A stretch of DNA of 64,000 nucleotides, from the IMG/VR virus record IMGVR_UViG_3300030103_002937, positions 1,505 through 65,504 of that record. One strand, 5' to 3'. A program made the translations under genes and the position numbers. The stretch comes from a virus. The notes below the pieces were generated by a model. That model did no database searches. It was given only the letters and a program-made list of their open reading frames with translations, and was not told the DNA's origin. Shown here in pieces: positions 8,208 through 62,589 of this stretch (position 1 is the stretch's first letter; each line of letters begins with the position of its first letter).

Positions 8208-8486
8208 TTAGTTGGTTTTTAATTCATACAAACGTGCTTCAATGATTTCAAGTTTTTCAAAGTTTTTTTCAATCAATTCCCGGTTGCTCATGACTTCATT
8301 CCGAATCATGTTGTCTTTCATGTCGAATTCCTCACGCGATATTGTGGGAACGGGTTGCAACATTGCTTCATTTATTTGTGCTTTTAAATTCCAATAAAAA
8401 CCCGTTGCGATAATAAGTCCCCCCGCCAACGAAATCATTGTTTCGATTGACATATTGAATTTAGTTTGTTTTGATAGTTCTTTCAT
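8208..8486 (-). CDS. Envelope cassette protein 1: TM anchor plus coiled coil
   Basis: 92 residues: short charged N-terminus, one TM segment (SLAGGLIIATGFYWNLKA), then a periplasmic-type helix ending VMSNRELIEKNFEKLEIIEARLYELK. The homologue at 52873-53157 shares the TM position, (P/E)-P-(I/V)SR-E(F/Y)D-KD and I--RLYE(L/I)(K/R). This is the shape of an i-spanin. It lies directly downstream of the portal gene. Confidence 0.65.
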   Translation of the reverse strand: MKELSKQTKFNMSIETMISLAGGLIIATGFYWNLKAQINEAMLQPVPTISREEFDMKDNMIRNEVMSNRELIEKNFEKLEIIEARLYELKTN

Positions 8487-8487
8487 T

Positions 8488-33515: not shown

Positions 33516-33849
33516 TTAATTCTTTTTACGTATATAATAGTAATTTACACACTTTTTACCGTTTTTACAAACATCGAGGTGACAATTGCTACCTATTATA
33601 TATACCTTAATAGGCTACCGTCACATATTTTGTATACCTAGATAATTTAGGAGGTGCTTTTGTAAGAAAAGTATCAGATATTTAGGGTTTTGGTGTTATA
33701 TACTATTTTTTAACTACATACAACAATACGGAAACCATTTTATTTACGCCACCTCCCCTGCTTTTTTCTGAATATTCCGGGATTTTTTGGCTTTTCCCAG
33801 GGTTTTCCTGCAGATTTCGGGAACTTTCTGGGATAGCTGCTAGCGCAGC

Positions 33850-33882: not shown

Positions 33883-33911
33883 ACTAACCACGATCCTGCA
33901 CCGATAATATA
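33883..33911 (+). promoter_or_regulatory. Phage B promoter motif, copy 1
   Basis: ACTAACCACGA, 9 nt, GATAATATA. Lies 21 nt before the 50-residue gene. The downstream bases make TATATTTG, the host-like -7 element. Confidence 0.75.
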
Positions 33912-33932
33912 TTTGAATCTAAATTATACGAT

Positions 33933-34085
33933 ATGAGAGTACGAATTGACACGAAGAATTGGATGGGCAACTATAGCAGCCGGGTCCAAACATTCAACGG
34001 GGAATCCCATCTGAACAACTACATCCGGTTCATGGGCCACCATGAGATCTATTCCAAGATCATTGGGGTTGAGGTTCTGGATTAA
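33933..34085 (+). CDS. Tiny early-region protein
   Basis: 50 residues (MRVRIDTKNWMGNYSSRVQT..., ending IIGVEVLD), probably a small beta-alpha fold. Base composition is richer in G+C than the next genes. It has its own promoter motif upstream and a CACCGC-CT-GCGGTG hairpin directly after the stop. Family not recognised; small early phage genes like this often target host functions. Confidence 0.5.
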   Translation: MRVRIDTKNWMGNYSSRVQTFNGESHLNNYIRFMGHHEIYSKIIGVEVLD

Positions 34086-34102
34086 CCAGGGCACCGCCTG
34101 CG

Positions 34103-34125
34103 GTGTATAGCAACGCGTATAGCAT
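34103..34125 (+). repeat. GTGTATAGCA elements, copies 2 and 3
   Basis: GTGTATAGCAA and GCGTATAGCAT, start to start 12 nt, roughly one helical turn. The first overlaps the 3' arm of the hairpin CACCGC-CT-GCGGTG and the pair ends 6 nt before promoter motif copy 2. Confidence 0.5.
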
Positions 34126-34131
34126 TTACAG

Positions 34132-34160
34132 ACTAACCACGATACTACTTCGATAATATA
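34132..34160 (+). promoter_or_regulatory. Phage B promoter motif, copy 2
   Basis: ACTAACCACGA, 9 nt, GATAATATA, 25 nt before the 46-residue gene. The first 11 bases are identical to copy 1. Confidence 0.75.
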
Positions 34161-34185
34161 TATGTAATGAATTAAAATGTAAATT

Positions 34186-34326
34186 ATGAGTATAAACGAT
34201 AAACTAAAACAACTGTACCAAAGATACGACTTTCTAATTGACTGTGACAGATGGGTACAAGCTAAGACAGTTCAAAAAGAAATAAGAGAATTAGAACTAT
34301 TACGTGAAGAAAGTTATACAAACTAA
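34186..34326 (+). CDS. Tiny helical early-region protein
   Basis: 46 residues, all helix with coiled-coil character (DKLKQLYQRYDFLIDCDRW, VQKEIRELELLREESYTN). Its final codons (ACAAACTAA) form the beginning of promoter motif copy 3, so stop codon and promoter are fused. Function unknown. Confidence 0.5.
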   Translation: MSINDKLKQLYQRYDFLIDCDRWVQAKTVQKEIRELELLREESYTN

Positions 34327-34350
34327 ACACGAAGTAAAGTAGATAATATA
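34322..34350 (+). promoter_or_regulatory. Phage B promoter motif, copy 3
   Basis: ACTAAACACGA, 9 nt, GATAATATA, 27 nt before the next ATG and overlapping the stop codon of the preceding gene. Confidence 0.75.
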
Positions 34351-34377
34351 AATGTAAACAATTAAAATTAAATAATT

Positions 34378-34629
34378 ATGAGTAAAGTAAATAACACACT
34401 AGTAAGTAAAAGATTTATCATTCGCAAATCTTTAATCGGTAAAAATGTCAATGTCTCATTCACAGACTATGACGGTAAAACACACAAGTACTCACATGAC
34501 AAAGTATACGAGTTATGTAAAGAAAGATTCGACAACATGAAATGTTTCCAAAAGTACAAGTATTACTCTCAAACATTCGCACTACCGAAGTTTGTACGCG
34601 AGTTAGGTGATGAGGTTCTAGTCAAATAG
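34378..34629 (+). CDS. Small early-region protein
   Basis: 83 residues, basic and beta-rich at the start (RFIIRKSLIGKNVNVSFTDYDGKTHKYSHDKVYELCKE) then helical (CFQKYKYYSQTFALPKFVREL). Preceded by promoter motif copy 3 and followed by a CCCC-TAG-CGGGG hairpin. Similar small proteins with a KxHxYxHDxVYxLxxExF pattern occur in marine phages; role unknown. Confidence 0.55.
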   Translation: MSKVNNTLVSKRFIIRKSLIGKNVNVSFTDYDGKTHKYSHDKVYELCKERFDNMKCFQKYKYYSQTFALPKFVRELGDEVLVK

Positions 34630-34662
34630 AACTTCACCCCTAGCGGGGGCTTCACCGCCCTC

Positions 34663-34684
34663 GTGTATAGCATATGTATAGCAA
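34663..34684 (+). repeat. GTGTATAGCA elements, copies 4 and 5
   Basis: GTGTATAGCAT and ATGTATAGCAA in tandem, start to start 11 nt, again closely following a GC-rich hairpin. No promoter motif follows closely; copy 4 of that motif is about 200 bp further on. Confidence 0.5.
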
Positions 34685-34887
34685 AAGTGAGGTGGAGTGA
34701 TGAAGTGTAAAGTCAGGTAAACAAATGATCGGTAGCGAAAAGTGCGACACTAGCCTGTTATTAAAGATACTTAACTAGCTAATGTCACATTTTATTGCTT
34801 CACCATTCTATTAGATGACTAGAGAGGTGTTGTTATATATGTAACATACTTTTATATTCCATACTAACTATATATTTTTTTTTACAG

Positions 34888-34916
34888 TTTGAACACGAAT
34901 CGGTGACGATAATATA
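34888..34916 (+). promoter_or_regulatory. Phage B promoter motif, copy 4
   Basis: TTTGAACACGA, 9 nt, GATAATATA; the left block departs from ACTAA in its first bases but keeps AACACGA and the exact spacing. 24 nt before the next ATG. Confidence 0.7.
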
Positions 34917-34940
34917 TATGAAACTTTAAAACACATTACT

Positions 34941-35144
34941 ATGGCTTATGAACTAATCCTTACCGATGTTCAAATGAAAAATTTAATCGGTAATCTAGAA
35001 ATGCAAATGCACCAGAACGGTACAGATTTTACAGACACTACCGACCCACTGGCAAGTATTTTCTGCGCCGCAATGTTCGGAAACGAGTATATGAACAGTG
35101 ACGAGAAAGGCGAACTCGAAGAGTATTACGAAACACATTACTAA
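34941..35144 (+). CDS. Small acidic early-region protein
   Basis: 67 residues: MAYELILTDVQMKNLIGNLEMQMHQNG, then a hydrophobic stretch SIFCAAMFGNEYM and an acidic end (DEKGELEEYYETHY). Helical. No family recognised. Confidence 0.5.
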   Translation: MAYELILTDVQMKNLIGNLEMQMHQNGTDFTDTTDPLASIFCAAMFGNEYMNSDEKGELEEYYETHY

Positions 35145-35154
35145 AATAATAATT

Positions 35155-35289
35155 ATGAGAAGTATAAACCTTACTGAAAACGATTGTACTTTCGTACACT
35201 ATGTATTACGTCAATATGCTAAGACTACACCGAGCTTAGACAGTGAAGACAGAGAAGCAATATATGCGGTAGCAAATAAATTCAAGTAA
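35155..35289 (+). CDS. Tiny early-region protein
   Basis: 44 residues (MRSINLTENDCTFVHYVLRQ..., DREAIYAVANKF), helical. I choose the ATG after AATT rather than an earlier in-frame ATG inside the upstream gene, because A/T-rich AATTATG starts recur through this array. Function unknown. Confidence 0.48.
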   Translation: MRSINLTENDCTFVHYVLRQYAKTTPSLDSEDREAIYAVANKFK

Positions 35290-35293
35290 AGTT

Positions 35294-35431
35294 ATGGATA
35301 TAGATATAGACAAGTATATAGACTGGTACAGTATTACTGACGACTATGAGTTGGCCAGTGGCGACATTTCACCTGAAGATTACTTTAAACTTCAAGAAAT
35401 ATTAGAACGGTATATTAAAACAAATAAATAA
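35294..35431 (+). CDS. Tiny acidic early-region protein
   Basis: 45 residues (MDIDIDKYIDWYSITDDYELASGDISPEDYFKLQEILER...). Strongly acidic, possibly a DNA-mimic-like or adaptor peptide, though this is only a charge argument. Fits exactly between its neighbours with gaps of a few bases. Confidence 0.48.
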   Translation: MDIDIDKYIDWYSITDDYELASGDISPEDYFKLQEILERYIKTNK

Positions 35432-35433
35432 TT

Positions 35434-35631
35434 ATGAACAGTATAAAATTTTTAAAGGAGAATAAAATACGATTGAACGGTGTGGTTTATAAACCTTACC
35501 TGATCGGTAACCTACCACCGAGCTTTGCATTCAAAGAGGAGTGGAAGACAGAAACTGACGGTACAGAATATGTAGTCGAAGGTATTAACGAGTGGTTTAA
35601 CTTTAAAGGATTTACCTATGTCAGTGAGTAA
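35434..35631 (+). CDS. Small early-region protein
   Basis: 65 residues (MNSIKFLKENKIRLNGVVYKPYLIG..., ending FNFKGFTYVSE), beta-rich with many aromatics. Directly follows the 45-residue gene by 2 nt. Family unknown. Confidence 0.5.
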   Translation: MNSIKFLKENKIRLNGVVYKPYLIGNLPPSFAFKEEWKTETDGTEYVVEGINEWFNFKGFTYVSE

Positions 35632-35632
35632 T

Positions 35633-35827
35633 ATGAGAGAGCTACTAGCCTACAGTGCGGCGAAAAAAACCGAACGTGCTGAAGAGTGGAATGCGGAACG
35701 GTTAGCACACGGATATTGCAGAGGTCTGAATCACCGCGAATATATGCGGTATAGAGTAAACGGTAAGTCGGTATTCCGCAAAGGTAAAGACTTCTCACAC
35801 CGCGAAAGGTGGAAATATACAAACTAA
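35633..35827 (+). CDS. Small basic early-region protein
   Basis: 64 residues from MRELLAYSAAKKTERAEEW; a start five codons earlier would overlap the preceding gene. Arg/Tyr-rich (NHREYMRYRVNGKSVFRKGKDF). The last codons (AAACTAA) run into promoter motif copy 5. Possibly nucleic-acid binding by charge. Confidence 0.48.
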   Translation: MRELLAYSAAKKTERAEEWNAERLAHGYCRGLNHREYMRYRVNGKSVFRKGKDFSHRERWKYTN

Positions 35828-35851
35828 ATACGAACACCTAACGATAATATA
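35823..35851 (+). promoter_or_regulatory. Phage B promoter motif, copy 5
   Basis: ACTAAATACGA, 9 nt, GATAATATA, beginning within the stop codon region of the preceding gene and 19 nt before the next ATG. Confidence 0.75.
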
Positions 35852-35870
35852 AATATAAAATACAAAAGTT

Positions 35871-36071
35871 ATGCCAAATATGAGTTATTGCAGGTACGAA
35901 AATACCTCGCTAGATATGCAAGATGTAGTAGATACATTATACGACAGTGATGTCACCGAAGACTTAAGTACACACGAGACACGTGGCTTAAGAACCATAC
36001 TCGAACTAGCTAAAGATATTGTAGATATGGAAGATAAGATAAATAACATACTTGAAAATCAAGAGCAATGA
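35871..36071 (+). CDS. Small acidic early-region protein
   Basis: 66 residues: MPNMSYCRYENTSLDMQDVVDTL, then acidic helices (RTILELAKDIVDMEDKI). MPNMSYCRxxNTxxD is a beginning I recognise from marine phage small proteins of unknown function. The stop overlaps the next ATG by 4 nt. Confidence 0.55.
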   Translation: MPNMSYCRYENTSLDMQDVVDTLYDSDVTEDLSTHETRGLRTILELAKDIVDMEDKINNILENQEQ

Positions 36072-36304
36072 GCAGTATTAATACAACCCCACTTACAGTG
36101 CGCGACGTATCACTAACGGTAAGTTACTATCACCATGCCGGTGAACCAGCAGTTATGTATTACAAAGACGGGTCAGGCCACCCAGGTGAACCACCTTCAA
36201 TTGAAGTGCAAGCGGTATACGCAGGTGAGATAGATATTTATGAACTGTTAGACGCAGATATGTTAGATTATATAGAGGGTAAATTAATAGAAATACACTA
36301 CTAA
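36068..36304 (+). CDS. Small beta-rich early-region protein
   Basis: 78 residues: LTVRDVSLTVSYYHHAGEPAVMYYKDGSGHPGEPPSIEVQAVYAGEIDIYELL. The central PGEPPSIE motif is common in phage small proteins near replication genes. Coupled to neighbours by overlaps of 4 and 1 nt. Function unknown. Confidence 0.55.
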   Translation: MSSINTTPLTVRDVSLTVSYYHHAGEPAVMYYKDGSGHPGEPPSIEVQAVYAGEIDIYELLDADMLDYIEGKLIEIHY

Positions 36305-36480
36305 TGAAACAACATTATATAACAGTATTAGATTTTACCGATGGCAGAATATATCAGTATGATGCTTGGGAAGGAGCTCTTTCACACGACGACTATGAAG
36401 CATTACTAGATTTAAAAGGGCATAAGCTAAACAGTATTGAATGGATGGTTCATGAGAACAGTGAAATAATTACAAGCTAA
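36304..36480 (+). CDS. Small early-region protein
   Basis: 58 residues (MKQHYITVLDFTDGRIYQYD..., HKLNSIEWMVHENSEIITS). Beta-alpha-beta pattern with acidic middle. Stop codon lies inside promoter motif copy 6. Function unknown. Confidence 0.5.
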   Translation: MKQHYITVLDFTDGRIYQYDAWEGALSHDDYEALLDLKGHKLNSIEWMVHENSEIITS

Positions 36481-36504
36481 ACACGAACCACATACGATAA
36501 TATA
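36476..36504 (+). promoter_or_regulatory. Phage B promoter motif, copy 6
   Basis: GCTAAACACGA, 9 nt, GATAATATA, ending only 3 nt before the next ATG. Transcription from this element would give a nearly leaderless mRNA. Confidence 0.75.
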
Positions 36505-36507
36505 AGT

Positions 36508-36699
36508 ATGAAAAAATGTAAATGTAACAATATAATACCGGCGGGGCGAGTAAACCTCGGGTATAACACATGCACAACTTGTTCAAACGTTGAACAGTAT
36601 AGCTACGTACCCATTATCGCACATAAGACCGGTAATACTATTCAAATCGTCAGTCAGGCAACAAGTGCCGCAGTGCACAGGTCATGGCGACGTAAATAG
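36508..36699 (+). CDS. Small Cys-motif protein
   Basis: 63 residues. An N-terminal CxC (KKCKCNNIIPAGRVNLGYNTC) with TTC gives four or five cysteines in 22 residues, likely a small zinc ribbon, followed by VPIIAHKTGNTIQIV and a basic end (HRSWRRK). This resembles small marine phage zinc-ribbon proteins. Its stop borders the structured RNA region. Confidence 0.55.
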   Translation: MKKCKCNNIIPAGRVNLGYNTCTTCSNVEQYSYVPIIAHKTGNTIQIVSQATSAAVHRSWRRK

Positions 36700-36893
36700 T
36701 TGTGTGATTAAAGGCGTAATTCCTTAGCGGGATGCGAGAAACGGCTCGATGAACACAACAGAGGGGCAAGAGATGCGGGTTACACACCGGTAAATGGCGC
36801 GCGGCCCCTCACTGGGCGTGAAATGGGTAGACAAGAAATAGGAGGCGAAAGCCACACTAACTTGTAACGCAGGTTCGATTCCTGCCACGTCCA
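36699..36893 (+). ncRNA. Candidate structured RNA with tRNA-like 3' domain
   Basis: Three successive closed domains fill the gap. Domain 1: 7-bp GTTGTGT/ACACAAC (36699-36705, 36753-36759) enclosing two hairpins (AAGG/CCTT with 7-nt loop; CGAG/CTCG). Domain 2: 7-bp GAGGGGC/GCCCCTC (36761-36767, 36804-36810). Domain 3: a 7-bp GGGCGTG/CACGTCC acceptor-like stem (36814-36820, 36886-36892), a stemless AAATGGGTAG segment, 5-bp ACAAG/CTTGT with a 25-nt loop holding GGC-GAAA-GCC, and a canonical T arm GCAGG-TTCGATT-CCTGC. G+C is above the flanks. A standard tRNA is excluded by the loop and missing D stem. Confidence 0.6.
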
Positions 36894-36908
36894 CTAAAAT
36901 TATAAATT

Positions 36909-37178
36909 ATGAGTGAAATAACTAACCGGCCCTATAATGGGTGGAATAATTACGCAACCTTTCGTGTTCACAACGATATACTAAACGGATATCAGTGGGA
37001 TGAAGACGAGGAAATAAACGTAGACTTACTAGAAGCAATAGTAGAAAATGCGGTATTTGAAAACAGCGGAGCAGTTGGTTTAATTGTAGACTACGCCAAC
37101 TTGTTCTTAAATAATGTAGATTGGGAAGAACTAGTAGAAGTATATAACTATGACAGAGAAGCAGAACAATCAAGCTAA
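36909..37178 (+). CDS. Conserved small phage protein (DUF7249-like)
   Basis: 89 residues: RPYNGWNNYATFRVHNDIL at the start matches the GWxNYxTWxV motif of a family frequent in marine and other phages, followed by acidic helices (DEDEEINVDLLEAIVENAVF; WEELVEVYNYDRE). Role unknown. Starts 16 nt after the structured RNA, with a 29-nt overlap into the next gene. Confidence 0.6.
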   Translation: MSEITNRPYNGWNNYATFRVHNDILNGYQWDEDEEINVDLLEAIVENAVFENSGAVGLIVDYANLFLNNVDWEELVEVYNYDREAEQSS

Positions 37179-37410
37179 GAGGTTAGCAGAGCTTAAAGAT
37201 AAGCACGGTATTGTCTTACACGGCAACTCCGATGCTATACATCTCCTCGACCGTATCGAAACGGTAATACGCGACCAAATACTTGAAACGATTACCGAAG
37301 AAATGTTTGAAGACGGTATAGTTGAAGAGACCGACGATAAGTATAGTTTACTATTATCTGTACTATACTACGAGCTAATTTACAAACTAAACACGGATGC
37401 TAAACGATAA
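37150..37410 (+). CDS. Small helical early-region protein
   Basis: 86 residues, helical, ending in KLNTDAKR; its last codons lie within promoter motif copy 7. NNQAKRLAELKDKHGIVLHGNSDAIHLLDRIETVI. Function unknown. Confidence 0.5.
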   Translation: MTEKQNNQAKRLAELKDKHGIVLHGNSDAIHLLDRIETVIRDQILETITEEMFEDGIVEETDDKYSLLLSVLYYELIYKLNTDAKR

Positions 37411-37414
37411 TATA
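37386..37414 (+). promoter_or_regulatory. Phage B promoter motif, copy 7
   Basis: ACTAAACACGG, 9 nt, GATAATATA, entirely inside the 3' end of the preceding gene and 3 nt before the next ATG. Confidence 0.75.
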
Positions 37415-37417
37415 AGT

Positions 37418-37636
37418 ATGAAAGAAAAAGCAACACTATATAACAGACTCAAACCCAACTACTTAGGTAAGTTAGTTGAGCAGCGTGAAAAGTTACCAAA
37501 TATGGTAGCCGCAGCTGAACGAGCAATGAATGAAAACGTGTGGGTAATTAGCCTTACCGTTGGCGAGATGTGCACAATATGTGACGTACTCGAAATAGAC
37601 TGGAACAAGTTATTTTTAATTTTTGAATATGAGTAA
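37418..37636 (+). CDS. Small early-region protein
   Basis: 72 residues from MKEKATLYNRLKPNYLGKL. I prefer this ATG to one 21 nt upstream because the latter lies inside the promoter motif. Helical; the end GEMCTICDVLEIDWNKLFLIF contains two Cys. Function unknown. Confidence 0.52.
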   Translation: MKEKATLYNRLKPNYLGKLVEQREKLPNMVAAAERAMNENVWVISLTVGEMCTICDVLEIDWNKLFLIFEYE

Positions 37637-38099
37637 AAAGAAGTACATTACAGACGAGTTAATCGAAGAGCGATTAAAAAAGCGAGGCCTGTCTTCATAC
37701 GACGGTTATGGAGCAGAAGACGAAGATGCAGACTATAAAAAGCTATGTAAACACTATGACCTTGAAATAATAGATCGGTGGCATCAAAGAGCGGATTATT
37801 TTATGTACACTGAAACAACTGCAGACGGTTACGAAGTATGGGTTGCAACAGAACACCCAAACGGTGATGTTAGCATAAATGAAGATGTTCACTACTATGA
37901 CAGTGACCTTGCTGAAGTTCTTATGGAATGGATTAGGTACGGCGGAGCCACTATATACGTAGACGATATAGAAGCGTATTATGTAACCGAAGCACTTGAA
38001 ACTATGTGGGAAAACATGATTGACAGTATTAAAGACGAAATAATTATTGAATTACAAGATGAAGGATATGAATACGAAGACGCAGAAGCCACTGCCTAA
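37629..38099 (+). CDS. Acidic hypothetical protein
   Basis: 156 residues from MSKKKYITDELIEERLKKRG. Extremely acidic after the first 20 residues, with strand-rich middle (TTADGYEVWVATEHPNGDVSI) and acidic C-terminal helices (DSIKDEIIIELQDEGYEYEDAEATA). Acidic early phage proteins can mimic DNA, but no family is recognised. Confidence 0.55.
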   Translation: MSKKKYITDELIEERLKKRGLSSYDGYGAEDEDADYKKLCKHYDLEIIDRWHQRADYFMYTETTADGYEVWVATEHPNGDVSINEDVHYYDSDLAEVLMEWIRYGGATIYVDDIEAYYVTEALETMWENMIDSIKDEIIIELQDEGYEYEDAEATA

Positions 38100-38304
38100 A
38101 TGGTTTGACGGAACAGTATATGAAAAGGGTGATACAGTATCAAACCCTTACACCGGCGACAAAGCCGAACTATCAGCAGAAGAGTTATCAATGTATGACG
38201 TAATCAAAGGTGCTGAATTTACACGAAGCTATAAACTTTTGCAGAAAGGTTTGGATTGGTTTAGACAAGCAAACCCCTCTGCATATATGACATTATTAGA
38301 TTAA
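38068..38304 (+). CDS. Conserved small phage protein
   Basis: 78 residues from MNTKTQKPLPKWFDGTVYEKGD. PKWFDGxVYxxGDxVxNPYTGxxAELxxEELSMYDxIKGAE is a pattern I recognise across marine phages; the function is unknown. It overlaps the acidic protein gene by 32 nt. Confidence 0.6.
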   Translation: MNTKTQKPLPKWFDGTVYEKGDTVSNPYTGDKAELSAEELSMYDVIKGAEFTRSYKLLQKGLDWFRQANPSAYMTLLD

Positions 38305-38306
38305 TT

Positions 38307-38462
38307 ATGAAATATCCAGATGCAGATAAACACTTTTGGGCTAGTATGACAAAGAGTGTTATAAGAGTAGGAGGCTATTGTCTCATTTTTATTGACATTG
38401 AAGTAGCAGCGGGTATACTTATCGCTAGCGAAGTAATCGGAGTAATAGAAGAATTAGTATGA
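38307..38462 (+). CDS. Small hydrophobic protein
   Basis: 51 residues with a hydrophobic central stretch (VGGYCLIFIDIEVAAGILIA), possibly one membrane helix interrupted by acidic residues. Its stop overlaps the next start by 4 nt. Family unknown. Confidence 0.45.
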   Translation: MKYPDADKHFWASMTKSVIRVGGYCLIFIDIEVAAGILIASEVIGVIEELV

Positions 38463-39064
38463 ATTTATTAACACAGAACGGGAAACTCAAGAAGACAAGC
38501 AAACAATTGGGAGTACGTGTATTCAATTTCGGAATACCAGCTTACAAGTCTGCGTCCGGCAAACTTACTTGCCCTATGGCTGACTCCTGCGTAAAATTTT
38601 GTTACGCTAAAAAGGGAGCATACATATGGAGCAACGTGCAGCCGGCGTTTGAAAAGCGCTACCAGCTCACCAAAACGGATGAGTTTGTAGAGGCAATGAA
38701 CGTAGAGATTAAACGCAAGCGACCAGACTATGTGCGGGTCCATGATAGCGGAGACTACTACAGTCCCAAATATCTAAAGAAGTGGATCGAGATTGCTATA
38801 CACAACCCGTCTGTTAATTTTTACAGTTATACTAATATGGTAGATATGTTTCATAAAACCGATCTGCCACCTAACTTCGATATTATATTCAGTGATGCCG
38901 GTAAACAGGTGCATATGATTGATTATGAGCAAGATAGGTACACAAAGATATTCAAATCCGATCAAGAGTTAGATCGTGCCGGGTTTGTAAATGCAAGCAA
39001 GGTAGATTTGTTTGCAACGAAATGGTTCAGTAAGAACAAAAAAATTGGACTAGTATATCACTAA
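38459..39064 (+). CDS. Gene product 88-like Cys-cluster protein
   Basis: 201 residues. LGVRVFNFGIPAYKSASGKLTCPMADSCVKFCYAKKGAYIW with its C-x5-C-x3-C cluster, then RVHDSGDYYSPKYLKKW and YSYTNMVDMF, matches the GP88 family of phages. Cysteines suggest a metal or Fe-S site reminiscent of radical-SAM proteins, but the reaction is not established. Largest protein in the early array. Confidence 0.75.
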   Translation: MNLLTQNGKLKKTSKQLGVRVFNFGIPAYKSASGKLTCPMADSCVKFCYAKKGAYIWSNVQPAFEKRYQLTKTDEFVEAMNVEIKRKRPDYVRVHDSGDYYSPKYLKKWIEIAIHNPSVNFYSYTNMVDMFHKTDLPPNFDIIFSDAGKQVHMIDYEQDRYTKIFKSDQELDRAGFVNASKVDLFATKWFSKNKKIGLVYH

Positions 39065-39333
39065 TGAGTAAAACAATATCACAAAAGTATATAAGAGATT
39101 ATATAACAGAACATTACGGTGAGTTACGCCATGATGTAAAGCGTATGGCTAAAGCATGCAGAATTGTAGCTAAACAGTATGGTTATACACCTAAACAAAT
39201 CTTTCATTTTATGATTGAACAAGAAAGCTTAGGTACTACTCATAGTTATGGTTTCAATACTGCTTATGGGCGTGAAATACGCGAGGAGTTTGAAGTACAA
39301 TATCATGAAATGTATAAAGAAATTACAAACTAA
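39064..39333 (+). CDS. Small early-region protein
   Basis: 89 residues (SQKYIRDYITEHYGELRHDV, KRMAKACRIVAKQYGYTPKQ), helical and basic. Shares a base with the GP88-like stop; its last codons begin promoter motif copy 8. Function unknown. Confidence 0.52.
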   Translation: MSKTISQKYIRDYITEHYGELRHDVKRMAKACRIVAKQYGYTPKQIFHFMIEQESLGTTHSYGFNTAYGREIREEFEVQYHEMYKEITN

Positions 39334-39357
39334 ACACGGATGGACACTGATAATATA
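39329..39357 (+). promoter_or_regulatory. Phage B promoter motif, copy 8
   Basis: ACTAAACACGG, 9 nt, GATAATATA, overlapping the preceding stop codon. The nominal ATG of the next gene lies inside the motif, so a later in-frame ATG may be used. Confidence 0.72.
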
Positions 39358-39573
39358 AAAGATGAAGCACATACAATGATATGGGCACGATTGTCTACTG
39401 CTGAGCTAGATTTGCAACGAGCAAAAGACTGGGACGGCAGAGGTCATTTAGATACAGACGAAAGCTTTGAGGAGACAAAAGAAGCACATATTGAAATGGC
39501 AAGAAGACGAGTAAATATTTATCATTACTTGCTAACACAAGTAGAAAAAGATATGGCAGAAGATGACGAATAA
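39340..39573 (+). CDS. Small helical early-region protein
   Basis: 77 residues (MDTDNIKDEAHTMIWARLST...). If the overlapping promoter motif drives it, translation more likely begins at the 13th codon (MIWARLSTAELDLQRAKDW; base 39376). Helical, charged (EETKEAHIEMARRRVNIYHYL). It overlaps the next gene by 11 nt. Confidence 0.5.
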   Translation: MDTDNIKDEAHTMIWARLSTAELDLQRAKDWDGRGHLDTDESFEETKEAHIEMARRRVNIYHYLLTQVEKDMAEDDE

Positions 39574-40597: not shown

Positions 40598-40726
40598 ATG
40601 GGCAAAGTAAAAGAGCTGTTTCAGCAAATGAGAGAACAAGAACTAGATGATCAGTTCATAAATGAACATTTTTTTCTTTGCACTCTTCGCGACGAAGGCA
40701 GCGACGATAGCAAGATAAATAAATAG
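40598..40726 (+). CDS. Tiny protein upstream of regulator
   Basis: 42 residues (MGKVKELFQQMREQELDDQF..., LCTLRDEGSDDSKINK), a common small phage protein shape (helix with MxxxQE and a short acidic tail). Family unknown. Confidence 0.5.
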   Translation: MGKVKELFQQMREQELDDQFINEHFFLCTLRDEGSDDSKINK

Positions 40727-40738
40727 AATAATAGGCTA

Positions 40739-41353
40739 ATGTCACGTAACATGAGGTACTTACATAGTAACAAAATTATATACAGGAGAGGTCCAATAAG
40801 TGACCAACCTAGCGAAACCTTCGAGTGGGGTGCGTTCTATGAAACAGGTACACATGAGTGTTACGAATTGTTTAGGAGTAAGGCTAAGATAACAAGTTAT
40901 AAATCACTGAAGTGGCATTTACTTGTACTCTGGTACCTTAACCCACAACTCGACCAAGATAAGTTTGAACAGCTTGCATACTATATAGCGGAAAAGGATA
41001 ATGGTTTTATAACCTTTTCAATACCTGAAATGTTACTCAAAAAGATTATTTATGATGTGAGCATGGAAGATCTTGAATATCCGCCAAAAAATAGGATTAG
41101 AAAAGTTATATTTAAAGACAGTACTAATCTTACTAAATCTCAAAAGCTATCGATAGTAGGCAAGCTGATTGGTCGTAATAGTAAAGCGCAGCCAGAGGAT
41201 ATATACGAAACAATGTTACTTATCCATGATAAAAGCGAAAAGATTACAATAACAAAGATTGCGCGGATATTAAATGTGTCAACCCGTACTATCTACAGAA
41301 ACATGACACATGAACTCACGAAAGAAAAAGAACTTTTGAATGAAGAAATATAA
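40739..41353 (+). CDS. HTH protein overlapping the sigma factor gene
   Basis: 204 residues. The C-terminus carries a helix-turn-helix (KITITKIARILNVSTRTIYRNMTHELTKEKE). The N-terminal part (FEWGAFYETGTHECYELFR; LVLWYLNPQLDQDKFEQLAYYIAE) is unfamiliar. It overlaps the sigma factor start by 14 nt, so the two are co-translated. Likely a transcription co-regulator, perhaps working with the sigma factor; this is inferred from context and the HTH. Confidence 0.6.
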   Translation: MSRNMRYLHSNKIIYRRGPISDQPSETFEWGAFYETGTHECYELFRSKAKITSYKSLKWHLLVLWYLNPQLDQDKFEQLAYYIAEKDNGFITFSIPEMLLKKIIYDVSMEDLEYPPKNRIRKVIFKDSTNLTKSQKLSIVGKLIGRNSKAQPEDIYETMLLIHDKSEKITITKIARILNVSTRTIYRNMTHELTKEKELLNEEI

Positions 41354-42101
41354 TGTACAAAACTATATTCGGTATAAAGAAGATTTAGAGGTAACAATAA
41401 AATTAATACCTAAAAAAGAATTTCACGAATATACGAGAACAGAACTTACAACGGTATTTTTACCGCTTGTAGAAAACATAGCGAGAAAGTTTTCAACTAC
41501 GCAGCAAGCATCAGGTGTAATGACTATTAATGACCTTATACAGGAAGGGGCTATAGGCTTGCAAGCAGCAGTTGATAGAATTGAATGGCAAACAATACAC
41601 GAATCGGAAGACAAAGAAAAAACACTTAAGTCTTTCTTTGCAAAGCGTATTCGCGGTGCTATTCGTAGAGCTATTGATATAAACAGAGGCGACATGCGCA
41701 TACCAGAATATAAATTAAATGACATACGCAAAAACTTTGGTAAAGACCGCAAAATAGTGCAGACATTTTTTAATCAGGTGTTTATGTCTATTGACGAAAA
41801 CTTTAACGACGAGGGTGATAATCCTTTGTTTCAAGTGCCAGATAAATCAGAGCCATATAATATTGCATTACTAAATGCTTACCTGTTAGGCATAATGAAA
41901 GAGTACTTAACAGATAAAGAATATGAAGTGCTCCGTATGAGCTATGGTTTAGATTGTGATAAATATCCGGCAAAGAACATTGCTAAAGAGTTAGGCATAG
42001 ATGGCGTAAGTAATTATGTACGTGTATCTGAGCTTAAAAAGTCAGCAATTGAAAAGCTTATAGATAATGTTTCACCTGACCAAGTTATTGATTATCTTTA
42101 A
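41340..42101 (+). CDS. Phage-encoded sigma-70 family factor
   Basis: 253 residues. Region 2: FLPLVENIARKFSTT, TINDLIQEGAIGLQAAVDRIEW, KSFFAKRIRGAIRRAIDIN (2.1-2.4). Region 4: MKEYLTDKEYEVLRMSYGL, KNIAKELGIDGVSNYVRVSELKKSAIEKL, the HTH that binds the upstream promoter element. No anti-sigma or region 1.1. It would reprogram host RNA polymerase to phage promoters; eight copies of a uniform 29-nt motif lie upstream in the same genome. Confidence 0.83.
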   Translation: MKKYNVQNYIRYKEDLEVTIKLIPKKEFHEYTRTELTTVFLPLVENIARKFSTTQQASGVMTINDLIQEGAIGLQAAVDRIEWQTIHESEDKEKTLKSFFAKRIRGAIRRAIDINRGDMRIPEYKLNDIRKNFGKDRKIVQTFFNQVFMSIDENFNDEGDNPLFQVPDKSEPYNIALLNAYLLGIMKEYLTDKEYEVLRMSYGLDCDKYPAKNIAKELGIDGVSNYVRVSELKKSAIEKLIDNVSPDQVIDYL

Positions 42102-55694: not shown

Positions 55695-55846
55695 TACTTT
55701 TTACTTTTAGTACCCCAATTAGCAGCACCAACTTTACGGCATTTAGCTATCGCTCCGCTTGCATAAGCAGACGGAAACACTTTATATCTTGCTTTTACTT
55801 TACGATAGCAAGCATCTTTTTTTTCAAATGGTGAGTTTGATTTCAT
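55694..55846 (-). CDS. Small basic conserved viral protein
   Basis: 50 residues (MKSNSPFEKKDACYRKVKAR, YKVFPSAYASGAIAKCRKVG). The KVFPSAYASGAxAKCRK motif recurs in marine phages and algal viruses, generally next to DUF5872-type genes, as here. Two conserved Cys and high positive charge. Function unknown. Its ATG overlaps the 2248-residue gene's stop (ATGA). Confidence 0.68.
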   Translation of the reverse strand: MKSNSPFEKKDACYRKVKARYKVFPSAYASGAIAKCRKVGAANWGTKSKK

Positions 55847-58800
55847 AATTCTCTTTTTTTAAATCTTTTACTTCTTTGACCTTTTTTAAATCCATCAGCA
55901 GGCGTTAATGGTTTTGGCGGTTTGGGTTTTTTAGCACTTTTTTCAATAAGCCCTACATCCCATTTACTATAACCTAACGCAAGTGATATTGCTTGCCAGG
56001 TTTCAACATCTTGCCTTACAGGTGTTGTAAGGTTGTCAAGCTTCCTAACAACTCTATCTGCTGGTAAGTTTGTAGTTGCTGCTATAATTTGGCCAACTGC
56101 TTCGAAAGCGGGGTTGTCTAAACTTATACCTTCAGTTCTCATTTTTTCGCGAGGCTGTCGATATGTAAATGATCTACCAGCTGAAGCTAGCTTGCTTATT
56201 TTAGAATCAATTGGAGGTGATAGACTTAAAGCTTCTAAAGCAACCTTTTCATAATTTGGTCTACCACTTTTGTATTGCCTTATTACTTCAAGAACCATAT
56301 TCTTGCCTGCAGCCACGGACGCACCTGCAAATCCAATACCACGGAGTATAGAATCAACGGTACTATTAGCAATTCTATAATATCTTTTTTCAGTTTCTTC
56401 GTCTTCTTCATCGGTAAACATTAAAGCAAACATTGCGGATTGCAAACTAGAAAATATAATGTTTTGTACGACACTATAATACATTAATTTGCTAAGGTTT
56501 GTTTTCCAATCGCCTCTACGATTAGCTAAATCTAAGACAGCTTTTTTGCTTAAGCGAGCGTATTGCATAGGTGTGTTAGCAAAAGCCAATATAACGCGCC
56601 CTAAACCGCTTGCTTGTTGCATTGAAATACGGTCTGGCCTTGACGATTGCTGCGTTTCTTCAGCAACTTCTTGAAAATCTAAAAACGCTTTATCGGCTGC
56701 CTCTTGTTCTGTCATACCTTCTTTTATATACCGCTTTAATCTGTTGCGATAAAACGAAGCGCCACCCATAGCGATTGCATGCGAGTCCGCAAGCTGTGTT
56801 GGTAAAAATCCTTTTTTAAGTATTGATGCTATCACAGATCTTACAGGGTTTGTGCCTGACTCCGCTGCTTTAGCAATTTCATCTGCATTTACATCTGTTT
56901 TTAATCCTGACCGTCTTTGTTTAAGAAAGTCAGAGTTGAATAAGAATGTGTAATCTTTCCAAAACTGCGGTTGGTTTGCAAATGCAGCCCCAGCAGACAG
57001 CGGATTATTATCGCTAAAGTTTATAAAGTTGACCATTGATAACTGCTGCAACAATGCTGATCTAGAGTTAAAGAACATAATAGCACCAACAGAATCATTA
57101 ACCCAGTTTATTACAGAATTAGTAAGTTTATTCGCTCCAGCTGGTCTTCTTCTGCCAGTTTCCATTCTATAAAGAATATCTTCTAATGCTTCAGTATAAC
57201 TTTCCCCAAATGCAGCCTTTAGCTTATTCATTGTTTTGTCAGTAAAGAAAGCGTCTTTAGCTGCCTGCCACGGTTTTAAGTATTCAGATCTTTCGGTTTT
57301 GTTTACGTATGTTAAAAGATCGGTAGTCATTGAGCCGGCATCCCAACCATTATCAGGTTCAGGATAGCCCATAATAGATATACCTTGTACATTTTGAGCA
57401 AATGCTAATAAATCTTCATTACCTTTAACAAGTTTTACATGAGATGCAATATCTTTCTTTTGCAATCCAGGAATAGTATAGCCTAAGCTATTCCATATGT
57501 ATATTCTTACCGAATCCTCGTTCGTAAATCCTGTTTCGTTTTTCTTTGAAAGACGGCTAGGTGTTCTACGTATTAACTTTTTAAGTTCTCTAAAGTCCGC
57601 TAAGCGTTTTTGTTTTGCTGCGTCAAACTTTCTTATTGCTTTACCAAATGGATCAAATAAGTTTTCTTTTAAAAACTTTAAATCATTATTACCCTGCTTG
57701 CCTTTTCCAATCATATAGTACATAAGACCCGCAAAGTCATCGGCTGAAGGTGGTATAAAAAATCTAAATCGCCCTTTGTTTTTACCAAGCATTGTGGCAA
57801 CCTTGTCGGATATTTGTTCGCGTGTACCAAATCCAGTTGCCCGTGCAATCATTTTATTGAACTCAGGGGCTGCGCTTTTACTAAGCTTTTGAGTTATTTC
57901 TTTTGGCTCTAATGGTGTTAACCTTTCTTTTATACCTGTCTTATCATATCGAGTTGATTCCTCACCAACTTCTTTATAGCCTAAATCGGTTAGCTCATTA
58001 TCTGTTTGCTTTGAAACTAATGCTACCTTGCTGTTCTCTAGCTTTTCAAAAAGTAAGTCTCTGCTTATTAGTTTATCACTAATTAAATATGACATGGCCA
58101 TACGAGCAAGCAAAGAAGATGGGGTCATGTGCTCGTATACTAAATTATCAAAATTACCTTTTTCAATATAAGAAACAGTACCCAGTAATTTTAAAGCTGT
58201 TCGCATATCGCCGGTTTCTAGCTGTAGATATGTTCTCGCCATATCAATATCACCTATGCTTTTAAGATAATCAATTCTAGATTTAAAATACTCTAATGCT
58301 TTTTTAGATTGAATATCAAACTCTGGTTTGAACTCTTCAACACCCATTCTAAATGCTTTATTAGTAGGGTCTTTTATAGCTGTTATTTGACCTTCACCTA
58401 TATATATTCTGCCGTTTTCTATTTTAAATATGCCTTCAAATTCAGGTGTTTTTTCAATTACTTTGCTATACACATTATCCCAAGCCTGTTGGTTTGTTGT
58501 AAAATACATAGAGCCTTGACGTATATTTCTACCCTCAAATGTTATAAAATCTACAAATCTTTGGAATTGTTCACCTTCTGGGGCGTTTTGTATATAATTT
58601 AACGCAAAATCAACTTGTTGATCAACATATTTTTGACCGTTTGGTGTTAAGCCGCCGTTTTTATCTATTAAGTTTAATGTTAACCCACCAGAAACTGTAG
58701 CAATACCGTTTATTACAGAAATTAAATTAAACTGATTATCGTTTATATATTCTATTTGATCTTGACCATATTGTTTATTACCATTTGCAGGAAACTTACT

Positions 58801-61800
58801 TTTTAACCTGTCAACCATTGCTTCAACATAGCTTTCAGGTACTGCTAACTTCGATGCAATTTCAGAATTAGGAAGCCCATCTTTTATATATCCAACAAGT
58901 TCAGCGCTATCTATTGCTCTTACATTTTTTCCTGATAAAGAAAACTTTTGTCGTAAATCTCTATTTACTTTTAAAGCTATTTTAGCAACCTCTTGTTCTG
59001 TATAAGGTTTTGTTTGAATTACACCAGGTGTTGCGTCCGACGCTGTTTGTAATCCTATATTAGCACCCAACTCTGACTTTCTAGCAGCAAGTGTAGAAGG
59101 TGAAACAGTGTAGCCAAGGATGTCTGACATTGACTGATCACCCACCGGCCCAGTAAAAAACGCTTGTATCTGTGCATCAGTAGGATTTAATAACTGATAA
59201 AGCTCAGGCCCATCAGCATCATTTTCTGTATATACTCTGCCAAGAGCGGTATATTTATCTATTTCTGCTTGCGTAGTTAGCCTTTTAACATACTTAGTAA
59301 AAATTTTTTGTGTATCAGGTAATAATCTTTCAATCTGCACCCAATAAGAAATAGGTAAGCCTTCTAATAAGTCCTGTTTATTTTCTAGAACAAAATCCGC
59401 TAACTTCTTTTTATTACCTAATGCCTTTTTAATTATAGGCATAAGTTTTTTCTTGTATGAATCAGTAACAAACTTTCTAAAGTCACGACTGTCTATAGGT
59501 GGTAAATTGCCTTCAAAAGTTTCATAAGCCGCTGTTCTAATTTCTTGCGCAAGCTCAGATGTAATAAATGGTTGACCGCCAACAGTAAGCGTAGACTTTA
59601 GCTGTGATTCAAAAGTTTGCTGCTCTTCTGTTAAGCTTCTGTCTACAATTTCTTCTATTTGCGCAGACTCTGTGTCTACTGCTTCAAACCCTCTGCCTTC
59701 CGTTTCAACATCTGTAGATACAGTTTTAACTTGTTTAGCATATTTCTTTTTAACATCACGAAGCGCAAAATCAACTATAGGTTTTGCCCCAAACAAATAA
59801 CCAAATAAACTTTCGTTTTTAGCTGGATCAAAGTTCTTTAAAAATCTTTCAGTTATAACTTCTCTAATGTTACTTATAACTTCACTTTTTATATTTTCGT
59901 CAAGCGAACCAAGATTTTTGTCAGCATTAACAAGGCCTCTTACATATTTACCTATAGCGTCGCCTTCCGCAACTTCATTATATGCATCAAAATAATCTTC
60001 AGATTTTTTAAAAGAATCTAAGGTTTTATATTTTGTTTTGCCTTCTGGAGTTTGTACAAACTTATCAAATATACCTTTAAGATCTTTTTTATCAGGGGAT
60101 ATACTTCTACTAAACTTAGGTTTTAATCCGCCTTTATCAAGCAAGTCTTCAATTAACTCTAGCTTTTGATCTGCCGACAATGCTTCGTATGTACTAAATT
60201 GCCCGGACTTTACATTATCTTGTGCCGCGACATCTGGAAACATTGCGTTAGCTGCGACTTGTACAAAATCATATTGATCAAATGGTGATAGGTCACTTGC
60301 AAATATAGGCTTTGCACTTTTAAGTATTTTTTGAGCTTCTTTGCTAAATTTAGAAACTTGAGCAGGGTCTGCATCTTTTAATACTTTACTTTTTAAATTA
60401 ACAAGTAAACCTCTTCTTTGTAATATTTTATTTTTAGAATTTATATTTTTATTATAATTTCTAATAAAATTAAATACATCTTCACCTGTATTTAGTTCAA
60501 TGTTGCCAAAGCCCAAACCATTGTAAAATCTTTTAAGTGAATTTTTTGCTTTAGTAATTAAGCTTTCATTTACAGATATTTTCTTTTTATCAATCAAATC
60601 TGAAAAAACATTTATATACTCTTCCAGAGCGCCTTCTTTTATTCTACCGGTTTTTTTGTCAGAATAAACTTTATCAATTCTAGTCTGAACAGACTTATAT
60701 ATTTCAGGATGGCTTTCTTGTAAATATTTTTTGAAATCTTCAACAAGAGGTTTCATTGAGGCATTATCTGTTTTAAAAGCTCTAGACATTAAATAGTGCA
60801 ATATTTCATGTCCTATAACATTCGTTTGCCCTGCAGCAGCGGCAACTTCTGTATTAATATAAATTATATCTTTACCATCTGCACCACCTTCTTTTAAAAA
60901 TACCGCGTCAGCTTCAGGGTCCATACCCTCAATTTCTTGCGCTTGTTTAGTTGTTATTTTTTGAATATCAACGTCGTCTGGCAAAATACCTTTAGCTCTT
61001 TCAAATCTTTCTTCAATTAAAGAGCTAGCGTCTAAAACTTCTTTAATAGCATTTTCAACAGTAGGATCGTAAAAATCTGTATCACCTATTGTGTCATCAT
61101 TTGCTTTAAAAGCATTTAATACTTTTTCTTTTGCGCTTTGTTGTTGTTCTTCGCTGTATCTGCCATCGTTTACAATACTAATATTATTATCAATAGTATT
61201 TAGATTGTCAGCATAATTGCGAAGTTCTTGCTTGCTTAAAGAATCAAATTTTTCGTTTATAGCTTTCTTTTTGTTTGAAACATCCTGCTGTAGATTATCT
61301 ACTAGTACCTGCTGAGCTTCTTTTTTAGGCCCGTCTGGTAAGTTTTCAAGCGTTTGCTTAGCGTTAGCAAGATTTATATTAAGATTTGCTATTTCTTGCT
61401 TAGCTTTATTAGGAGCTATATATTGATATATTGCATCTTTTTCTTGTTTTGTTTTAGCCATTTGAGCAGTACCTGTAGCTCCGGATACACCTCCACCTAA
61501 TAAACCGCCTACAACAAAACTATTTATAAACCCTCTAAAAAAATCAGTTTGATCTTTTTCGTCTCCGTATACTAGCTGATCAGTTTTTTGTTGCAAAAAA
61601 TCAGTTGCTCCTTCTGTAAAACCCTCGCCCATAAACCCAAGCCCGGCTTTTGTTAAAAATTCTTTTACATAATTACCTGTAAATTTTTTAACAGCTTTTT
61701 TACCAACACCTGTTTTATCTAAGCCATTTAAAACTCTAAAAAGTTTAGCTCCAGCCCATTCAGTTCCAAATTCAGCAAAGCCTTTGGAGGTTGCAGCTTT

Positions 61801-62589
61801 ATATATATCGCTAAGCGTTGCGTCAGGTCTTTCTTTTAATGCTGTTTCAAATTCATTTCCAGCAGTTGACATACCTAAAGCGGCACTGCCTATTAGTGGA
61901 AAAGCATATGTTATTGCAAGAGATGGAGCTGACCCAACGGCTTGATCCACTGCAAGTTTAGCAGCATCACTATATCTACCTTTAGAAAAAAGCTGGTCAA
62001 ACTCTAATTGCTGACCGTCATCATCGTAGTACTTTAGCTGAAGTTCACTAAGTTTATCGCTTAGCTCGTACATTGGAGTAAAGTCTATTCCTTCGCCTGC
62101 TTTACTAAATTGCTCTTGAAACTCAATTAATTTTTTAGGATCTTTTTGAGCCAACCCGCCAATAAGACGAGCAGCATTAGGTAAATCTAGCCCAGCGGTA
62201 TATCTTTCAAGACCATCTATAAGACCAGGCACGTTTTCTGTAAAAAACTTTGTAATACCAGCAAGTTTTGAAACTCCTGATTCACCTATAGGTAACAATC
62301 CCCCGGTTAAGCCTGTTAATACTTTACCCGTTGCTTGTCTTTTAACTAAGTCTTGTTGTGCTAATTGTTTACCCGGCGTTAAATCCAATGAAGTATTTTC
62401 CGAATCTAAGTCCGTATTCACGGGTTCGGGTGCTGCAGTTTCCTCCACAACCGCACCCGGCGCTGTGGGAGTTGTCTTTCCCGGCTCAATTTCCTTTAGC
62501 TGAGCATTAGGATATTTTGCAAGAAATTGATCTTTTCTAGACGAGTGGACTTTAAATTCTCTACCGTCTACAATATATATTTCAATCAT
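55843..62589 (-). CDS. Giant polyvalent virion protein with metallopeptidase motif
   Basis: 2248 residues. Begins with MIEIYIVDGREFKVHSSRKDQFL, a small N-terminal motif of phage virion proteins, then a Pro/Thr linker, an Ala/Gly-rich hydrophobic region (GSAPSLAITYAFPLIGSAALGM), a zinc-peptidase site VIGHEILHYLMS (H-E-x-x-H; about residue 600), long helical domains, and near the end TQLADSHAIAMGGASFYRNRL plus KLMYYSVVQNIIFSSLQSAMF. Such large polyvalent proteins are virion proteins injected or used for entry in many marine phages. No recognisable RNA polymerase or transglycosylase motif is visible. Confidence 0.75.
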   Translation of the reverse strand: MIEIYIVDGREFKVHSSRKDQFLAKYPNAQLKEIEPGKTTPTAPGAVVEETAAPEPVNTDLDSENTSLDLTPGKQLAQQDLVKRQATGKVLTGLTGGLLPIGESGVSKLAGITKFFTENVPGLIDGLERYTAGLDLPNAARLIGGLAQKDPKKLIEFQEQFSKAGEGIDFTPMYELSDKLSELQLKYYDDDGQQLEFDQLFSKGRYSDAAKLAVDQAVGSAPSLAITYAFPLIGSAALGMSTAGNEFETALKERPDATLSDIYKAATSKGFAEFGTEWAGAKLFRVLNGLDKTGVGKKAVKKFTGNYVKEFLTKAGLGFMGEGFTEGATDFLQQKTDQLVYGDEKDQTDFFRGFINSFVVGGLLGGGVSGATGTAQMAKTKQEKDAIYQYIAPNKAKQEIANLNINLANAKQTLENLPDGPKKEAQQVLVDNLQQDVSNKKKAINEKFDSLSKQELRNYADNLNTIDNNISIVNDGRYSEEQQQSAKEKVLNAFKANDDTIGDTDFYDPTVENAIKEVLDASSLIEERFERAKGILPDDVDIQKITTKQAQEIEGMDPEADAVFLKEGGADGKDIIYINTEVAAAAGQTNVIGHEILHYLMSRAFKTDNASMKPLVEDFKKYLQESHPEIYKSVQTRIDKVYSDKKTGRIKEGALEEYINVFSDLIDKKKISVNESLITKAKNSLKRFYNGLGFGNIELNTGEDVFNFIRNYNKNINSKNKILQRRGLLVNLKSKVLKDADPAQVSKFSKEAQKILKSAKPIFASDLSPFDQYDFVQVAANAMFPDVAAQDNVKSGQFSTYEALSADQKLELIEDLLDKGGLKPKFSRSISPDKKDLKGIFDKFVQTPEGKTKYKTLDSFKKSEDYFDAYNEVAEGDAIGKYVRGLVNADKNLGSLDENIKSEVISNIREVITERFLKNFDPAKNESLFGYLFGAKPIVDFALRDVKKKYAKQVKTVSTDVETEGRGFEAVDTESAQIEEIVDRSLTEEQQTFESQLKSTLTVGGQPFITSELAQEIRTAAYETFEGNLPPIDSRDFRKFVTDSYKKKLMPIIKKALGNKKKLADFVLENKQDLLEGLPISYWVQIERLLPDTQKIFTKYVKRLTTQAEIDKYTALGRVYTENDADGPELYQLLNPTDAQIQAFFTGPVGDQSMSDILGYTVSPSTLAARKSELGANIGLQTASDATPGVIQTKPYTEQEVAKIALKVNRDLRQKFSLSGKNVRAIDSAELVGYIKDGLPNSEIASKLAVPESYVEAMVDRLKSKFPANGNKQYGQDQIEYINDNQFNLISVINGIATVSGGLTLNLIDKNGGLTPNGQKYVDQQVDFALNYIQNAPEGEQFQRFVDFITFEGRNIRQGSMYFTTNQQAWDNVYSKVIEKTPEFEGIFKIENGRIYIGEGQITAIKDPTNKAFRMGVEEFKPEFDIQSKKALEYFKSRIDYLKSIGDIDMARTYLQLETGDMRTALKLLGTVSYIEKGNFDNLVYEHMTPSSLLARMAMSYLISDKLISRDLLFEKLENSKVALVSKQTDNELTDLGYKEVGEESTRYDKTGIKERLTPLEPKEITQKLSKSAAPEFNKMIARATGFGTREQISDKVATMLGKNKGRFRFFIPPSADDFAGLMYYMIGKGKQGNNDLKFLKENLFDPFGKAIRKFDAAKQKRLADFRELKKLIRRTPSRLSKKNETGFTNEDSVRIYIWNSLGYTIPGLQKKDIASHVKLVKGNEDLLAFAQNVQGISIMGYPEPDNGWDAGSMTTDLLTYVNKTERSEYLKPWQAAKDAFFTDKTMNKLKAAFGESYTEALEDILYRMETGRRRPAGANKLTNSVINWVNDSVGAIMFFNSRSALLQQLSMVNFINFSDNNPLSAGAAFANQPQFWKDYTFLFNSDFLKQRRSGLKTDVNADEIAKAAESGTNPVRSVIASILKKGFLPTQLADSHAIAMGGASFYRNRLKRYIKEGMTEQEAADKAFLDFQEVAEETQQSSRPDRISMQQASGLGRVILAFANTPMQYARLSKKAVLDLANRRGDWKTNLSKLMYYSVVQNIIFSSLQSAMFALMFTDEEDEETEKRYYRIANSTVDSILRGIGFAGASVAAGKNMVLEVIRQYKSGRPNYEKVALEALSLSPPIDSKISKLASAGRSFTYRQPREKMRTEGISLDNPAFEAVGQIIAATTNLPADRVVRKLDNLTTPVRQDVETWQAISLALGYSKWDVGLIEKSAKKPKPPKPLTPADGFKKGQRSKRFKKREL

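Follow-up and report, generated by a model that had tools for sequence, protein, structure and literature searches.

A predicted early-gene promoter class and its candidate sigma-factor reader in a lineage of Bacteroidetes-linked podoviruses

Phage promoters of several types have been described with respect to the factor that directs RNA polymerase to them. The early promoters of phage T4 are read by the host RNA polymerase with the host sigma factor, while the middle promoters that depend on gp28 of SPO1 and the late promoters that depend on gp55 of T4 are phage-sigma promoters. Marine Bacteroidetes are a major bacterial group of the oceans and possess an atypical sigma-A. In the middle promoters of T4 the MotA box is centred at -30 and lies 12+/-1 bp from the -10 element (PMC2988021). 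The flavobacterial sigma-A box is TAnnTTTG at -12 to -5; the sigma factors of Flavobacterium psychrophilum are limited to sigma-A, one sigma54 and seven of the extracytoplasmic function (ECF) type, and its mRNAs have a median leader of 24 nt, with 5.5% being leaderless (PMC9723704). Here we analyze a 64,000-nucleotide stretch (hereafter the window), namely positions 1505-65504 of the 92,966-base virus record IMGVR_UViG_3300030103_002937, in which a sequence-only reading had pointed to eight copies of a 29-nt motif with fixed internal spacing in the early region of a podovirus, phage B. We find that this motif is almost certainly a promoter, and propose with moderate confidence that it represents an early-gene promoter class of marine Bacteroidetes podoviruses, which is read by the host core polymerase in conjunction with a phage-encoded sigma factor. 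The literature library that we searched describes no promoter class for phages of marine Bacteroidetes.

Architecture, start sites and distribution of the motif

All eight copies of the 29-mer are present at the positions originally reported, on the plus strand and with 0-3 mismatches, and a scan of the other 29 kb of the record recovered no extra copy. With a position weight matrix (PWM) they score 26-45, as against 10 for the runner-up position in the window, and between 33.5 and 52 kb the downstream block GATAATATA occurs eight times on the plus strand and not once on the minus strand. The uniformity of the copies is indeed beyond chance, with 0 matches in 100 dinucleotide-preserving shuffles as against the 8 observed. 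The two blocks first described, of which the upstream one had been given as ACTAAACACGR, are genuine but were drawn too short: conservation extends on both sides, through TTACA upstream and wwTR (two A/T-rich bases, a T and a purine) downstream, resulting in the full consensus TTACAAACTAAAYACGA-N9-GATAATATA-wwT-R, which was derived from 342 and later 689 distinct sites. The R at motif position 11 is A in 95% of the relatives. The gap between the blocks is fixed as claimed: when any spacing from 3 to 19 was allowed between the two half-elements, 364 of the 368 unique sites containing both had a gap of exactly 9.

The base situated 7 nt past the last T of GATAAT is a purine at 686 of the 689 sites (G in 422 and A in 264); the matrix used to find the sites ended four bases before this purine (position 33), which hence played no part in their selection. 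This conserved purine is likely to be the start site (+1). Numbered in this way, GATAAT occupies -12 to -7, i.e. the classical position of a sigma70 -10 element, and the upstream element occupies -38 to -22. Open reading frame (ORF) starts show a main peak 18-24 nt after the predicted +1, and a minor peak between +9 and +11, while leaderless genes, with the ATG at +1 itself, form a further class; a mere 20 of the 611 sites with a nearby ORF start have none at or beyond +1, and the median implied leader is 19 nt.

In the window the predicted +1 is a purine in all eight copies. Copy 1 (33883-33911; PWM score 30.9) has its predicted +1 at G33915, followed by the gene start ATG at 33933, and the corresponding positions are G34164 for copy 2 (34132-34160; 34.6), G34354 for copy 3 (34322-34350; 43.2), G34920 for copy 4 (34888-34916; 26.2), whose upstream half is degenerate, and A35855 for copy 5 (35823-35851; 45.4). 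Copies 6 (36476-36504) and 7 (37386-37414) are of the leaderless type, with the predicted +1 (36508 and 37418, respectively) being the A of the ATG; these are the two copies correctly recognized earlier as finishing 3 nt ahead of a start codon, and the gene led by copy 6 has an MKKCKC start common to relatives with leaders of 0-2 nt. Copy 8 (39329-39357) has an ATG 4 nt downstream; its predicted +1 is G39361, but the start conserved in the orthologue from the relative L034 is the ATG at 39376, 15 nt past +1. Thus, the proposal of near-leaderless mRNAs applies to two of the eight copies, most of the promoters having implied leaders of about 20 nt. Of the five copies said to begin inside the preceding stop codon, four (34322, 35823, 36476 and 39329) contain the TAA of the preceding gene at motif positions 3-5, and at the fifth (37386) the preceding ORF (37150-37410) instead ends in the TAA of GATAAT.

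The orientation of the copies, their position at gene starts, the sigma70-like -10, the near-invariant purine at +1 and the leaders of 0 or about 20 nt are together accounted for only by a promoter. By gene order alone the genes led by the motif appear to be early. That several copies lie within one region and abut start codons might also be expected of an iteron, a packaging site or a translation signal acting at the RNA level, but such a role is extremely improbable given the single orientation at gene starts across 5-8 kb, the variable distance to the ATG, and the -10 and +1 features.

An exact scan of IMG/VR with AMTAAACACG-N10-GATAATATA recovered 84 stretches. A search of related genomes, which the sequence-only reading had suggested as a check, detected 2-12 copies in each of 50 whole records (G001-G050), all on one strand save for a single extra opposite-strand copy in one record, with the reversed control pattern giving about 0 matches. 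The copies number in the hundreds within one lineage of podoviruses of about 60-69 kb that is represented solely in metagenomes: in 31 of the 33 motif records examined, with the terminase located, TerL is 69-78% identical to that of phage B, and by this sequence measure the motif phages are one lineage. The hosts of their relatives point to Flavobacteriia as the hosts. In contrast, 257 Gb of sequence from 85,000 prokaryote genomes (bacteria and archaea) contains the exact pattern in only 7 stretches, several of which are plainly phage contigs binned with Bacteroidetes. Our search of the literature library for the motif sequence or for such promoters returned nothing relevant, in keeping with the earlier statement that no described phage promoter has this sequence.

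As a separate observation, the 1.39 Mb contig L216 from a Flavobacteriales metagenome-assembled genome carries a single near-perfect promoter copy (322-371) near parA/parB, some 100 bp ahead of a chromosomal gene whose product appears TerB-like by eye. This genome lacks a homologue of the phage sigma factor considered below, and the copy is possibly a captured promoter that would fire upon infection.

The phage sigma factor as candidate reader

The last motif copy is followed, after about 2 kb, by a pair of genes encoding a helix-turn-helix (HTH) protein and a 253-aa protein (41340-42101, plus strand) that belongs to the sigma70 family by both profile and fold (AlphaFold, Foldseek), with regions 2 and 4. 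Homologues of this sigma factor (56-78% identity) are found in 37 of the 50 motif records; the 13 records lacking it all stop no more than about 2 kb past the last motif, and all 37 that are long enough carry it. Conversely, among sigma loci with 5 kb or more of upstream sequence, 52 of 53 have the motif; 346 of the sites are upstream of the sigma gene and share its strand, while 7 are downstream and 2 are on the opposite strand, and reversed sequences of these loci contain zero sites above threshold. No relatives of the sigma factor were detected in 50,697 phage records. Residues 437 and 440 of E. coli sigma70 set specificity at -12; their equivalents in a by-eye alignment, Gly106 and Arg109, are invariant in 30 homologues and the promoter has an invariant G at -12, which is suggestive of a fit between sigma factor and promoter. 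The neighboring base at -13 (G in 25 of 50 phages, C in 7, A in 7, T in 1 and mixed in 10) is constant within most phages and varies between them. This pattern is a sign of a co-evolving reader, as expected if each reader has its own preference.

We infer from these associations that the predicted promoters are active and that this sigma factor reads them. Under the mechanism that we propose, the host RNA polymerase core would carry the phage sigma factor to the motif, where region 2 would melt GATAAT at -12 to -7, and region 4, either alone or with another protein, would read the 17-bp TTACAAACTAAAYACGA at -38 to -22. With their separation invariant at 9 bp, the two elements would stay in register, and transcription would begin at the conserved purine 7 nt past the -10, producing leaders of about 20 nt or none. 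A more specific version, which we advance only tentatively and consider doubtful, is that the phage sigma factor alone reads this unusually long, rigid promoter, composed of the 17-bp upstream element and the -10, and thereby introduces a -10 of the sigma70 type to Bacteroidetes, in which sigma-A reads TAnnTTTG, and that its gene, being transcribed from those promoters, forms a self-amplifying early switch, which is started by a few virion-carried or leak-made molecules and damped by the HTH protein through palindromic operators.

Several observations weigh against the assignment of the phage sigma factor as the reader. The motif phages being a single lineage, as indicated by their terminases, the co-occurrence of motif and sigma factor is confounded by descent. 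Residues of the HTH protein follow the -13 base no less well than any residue of the sigma factor, and the base is predicted equally well by other neighboring genes; accordingly, covariation of -13 with either protein at the residue or distance level was set aside as not discriminating. The sigma gene also lies downstream of the promoter cluster on the same strand, so that the first round of transcription needs something besides newly made phage sigma factor, and the host-type promoter that was sought as a starter of the sigma gene was not found. A leaky start, virion-carried sigma factor or recognition of the motif by the host could fill this gap. Finally, one relative, L134, has the sigma gene and lacks the motif, the whole block of small early genes being gone as well. 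L134 has the closest sigma relative (79%); all promoter copies are missing, Erf is truncated, and its state represents either a deletion or a misassembly.

This same placement of the cluster at the head of the early arm, with the sigma gene downstream of it and no host-type promoter found ahead of that gene, is what would be seen under the main rival explanation, in which the host RNA polymerase with a host sigma factor reads the motif as a true immediate-early promoter, and the phage sigma factor serves the later structural genes. We consider this unlikely. The TTTG is at the place needed for TAnnTTTG at only 18 of the 689 sites, and genes of the leaderless class would lose their ATG if transcription started 5 nt after that box, making it incompatible with them. 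The motif promoters also lack a TTG at -33, there are no comparable host promoters, and the search for late promoters that the phage sigma factor might serve turned up no clear class. While the motif promoters resemble the sigma-A promoters of Flavobacterium in leader length (a median of 19 nt in the motif phages versus 24 nt in the host) and in having a leaderless minority, they differ in their GATAAT -10 and rigid spacer and in the absence of both TAnnTTTG and the TTG at -33. Judged from sequence, the motif is not a flavobacterial sigma-A promoter.

Candidates for host-type elements were tried and rejected. Copy 1 contains TATATTTG and was considered as a dual host/phage promoter, but only 2 of 33 first copies have TATATTTG. 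A conserved host promoter preceding the HTH and sigma genes was rejected since TAnnTTTG was present in only 14 of 75 cases, and host sigma-A boxes of the form TTTG-N-TAnnTTTG showed no enrichment over the control in the early arm.

The rigidity, uniformity and phage-specific nature of the promoters also recall those read by a single-subunit or virion-borne phage RNA polymerase, as in T7, N4 or crAss-like phages, and a late-arm protein of 2,248 aa without an assignment would be available for such a role. The sigma70-like -10 speaks against this, as does the protein itself, which has neither a Pfam or PHROG hit nor a DxDGD motif, and has HEILH instead; we therefore regard a phage polymerase as very improbable. 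With no RNA polymerase hallmark, the identification of this ORF as a crAss-like virion polymerase was rejected. Matches to RNA polymerase families were absent from six records, though the positive controls of that search also gave no match. The 2,248-aa protein (55843-62589, minus strand), with its metallopeptidase-like HEILH motif and hydrophobic stretches, is perhaps an injected polyvalent virion protein.

The paired HTH protein and comparison with MotA and phage sigma systems

The HTH protein (40739-41353, plus strand; 204 aa; Pfam HTH_7) is encoded in 81 of the 82 sigma loci with 1 kb of upstream sequence. Its confidently modeled structure has no match in PDB, and no relatives were found in 50,697 phage records. 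Inverted repeats occur in the window at 33579-33624 (46 bp, with GTGACANTAGC arms) at the divergent junction of late and early arms, at 34744-34788 (45 bp), about 140 nt upstream of promoter copy 4, and at 40701-40745 (45 bp), overlapping the start codon of the HTH gene. In nearly all relatives repeats of 44-46 bp with arms near GTGACATTAGCCTGTTACT are likewise found over the HTH start codon, with one or two more near the early cluster, and reversed controls of this search gave one hit. The repeat is likely to be the operator of the HTH protein, which is thus a candidate regulator.

Such an operator makes the HTH protein less likely as the reader of the promoter element, which is non-palindromic. 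This bears on a MotA-like explanation, whereby a phage activator such as the HTH protein binds the 17-bp element and recruits the polymerase, with the host or phage sigma factor reading only the -10. A contiguous 17-bp element exceeds the length of a normal -35 box and is centred at -30, just as MotA boxes are (PMC2988021), and the HTH gene is consistently paired with the sigma gene; but the 45-bp palindrome over the gene's own start codon is a better candidate target for the HTH protein, the HTH model is without a PDB match, and no MotA or AsiA family hit was obtained among the proteins scanned. Hence, we find this explanation rather improbable. The motif promoters share with the T4 middle promoters a phage-specific element centred at -30 in place of the -35 box, combined with a sigma70-type -10 (PMC2988021). 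They differ from them in the size and sequence of the box (17 bp versus 9-10), the gap (exactly 9 versus 12+/-1), their rigidity across the lineage, their link to a phage sigma factor and the lack of a recognized MotA or AsiA.

With the SPO1 gp28 and T4 gp55 systems they have in common a phage-encoded sigma70-family protein and phage-specific promoters that are off the host consensus, and differ in serving the first genes, where those systems serve late or middle genes, in the extra 17-bp upstream element and in their Bacteroidetes hosts. Given that the motif departs from MotA promoters in spacing and in the genes present, we assign it neither to the T4 middle type nor to the SPO1/T4-late type.

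The reading that we prefer, of a promoter class served by host core polymerase and phage sigma factor, offers predictions at the level of single bases, namely the start site, the -10, the upstream box and the -13 base of each phage, and names a candidate sigma factor and a candidate regulator. The motif can serve to locate this uncultured lineage in metagenomes, to annotate it and to call gene starts, and the system is perhaps usable as an orthogonal sigma-promoter pair for Bacteroidetes genetics.

Named relatives, late genes and other features of the record

The terminase of phage B is 63% identical to that of Podoviridae sp. ctfjg026 (MW202828.1), 45% to those of the Flavobacterium elemo phages, and 38% and 37% to those of Cellulophaga phages phi19:3 and phi38:1, respectively; Maribacter Panino and Tenacibaculum Gundel_1 are further named relatives. 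No motif was detected in the scanned stretches of the named relatives, the best PWM score in these and in phi10:1 being 4.3, as opposed to 26-45 in the window. Apart from the related terminase that they share with phage B, ctfjg026, the elemo phages, phi19:3 and phi38:1 differ from it, as the scanned stretches are free of the motif and homologues of the sigma factor and HTH protein are absent.

A de novo search by expectation maximization for a late promoter class yielded no clear motif, and TTATATTATATYATG was rejected as such a class because it precedes only one or two late genes per genome. One or two late genes in each of L094, L223, L230, L234 and L238 are preceded by TTAATTATATTATATYATG, which has its end at the start codon and in every case lies on the late strand; this is possibly a late promoter. 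A protein resembling phage GroEL-type chaperonins is encoded at 8396-9946 (minus strand) of L095, and the named relatives carry genes annotated as GroEL and Cpn10.

Two phages are joined in the record: window 1 to about 32400 belongs to a tailed phage and the rest to podovirus B. The tailed phage encodes a separate portal, major head protein, tape measure and primase-helicase at 4.7-24.6 kb, and the joined record is possibly an assembly chimera. Between the late and early arms of phage B a conserved noncoding block (33579-33770), with equivalents in L139, L147, L150 and L151, consists in order of the inverted repeat, a GGTGTTAC-like stretch and AAAACGnTTTTnTTTCACCnnGCCCCC; it is a possible replication origin or structured RNA. 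Within the early region, positions 36814-36896 specify a tRNA-like RNA resembling the tRNA domain of tmRNA without the mRNA part. It matches Rfam tmRNA with E 3e-11, short of the gathering score, and has a fold z of -3.9; ARAGORN made no call for it. At this place many relatives have either GGGCGTGAAATGG...GGTTCGATTCCTGCCACGTCCACTA elements of a similar kind or unusual tRNA-like sequences of other kinds.

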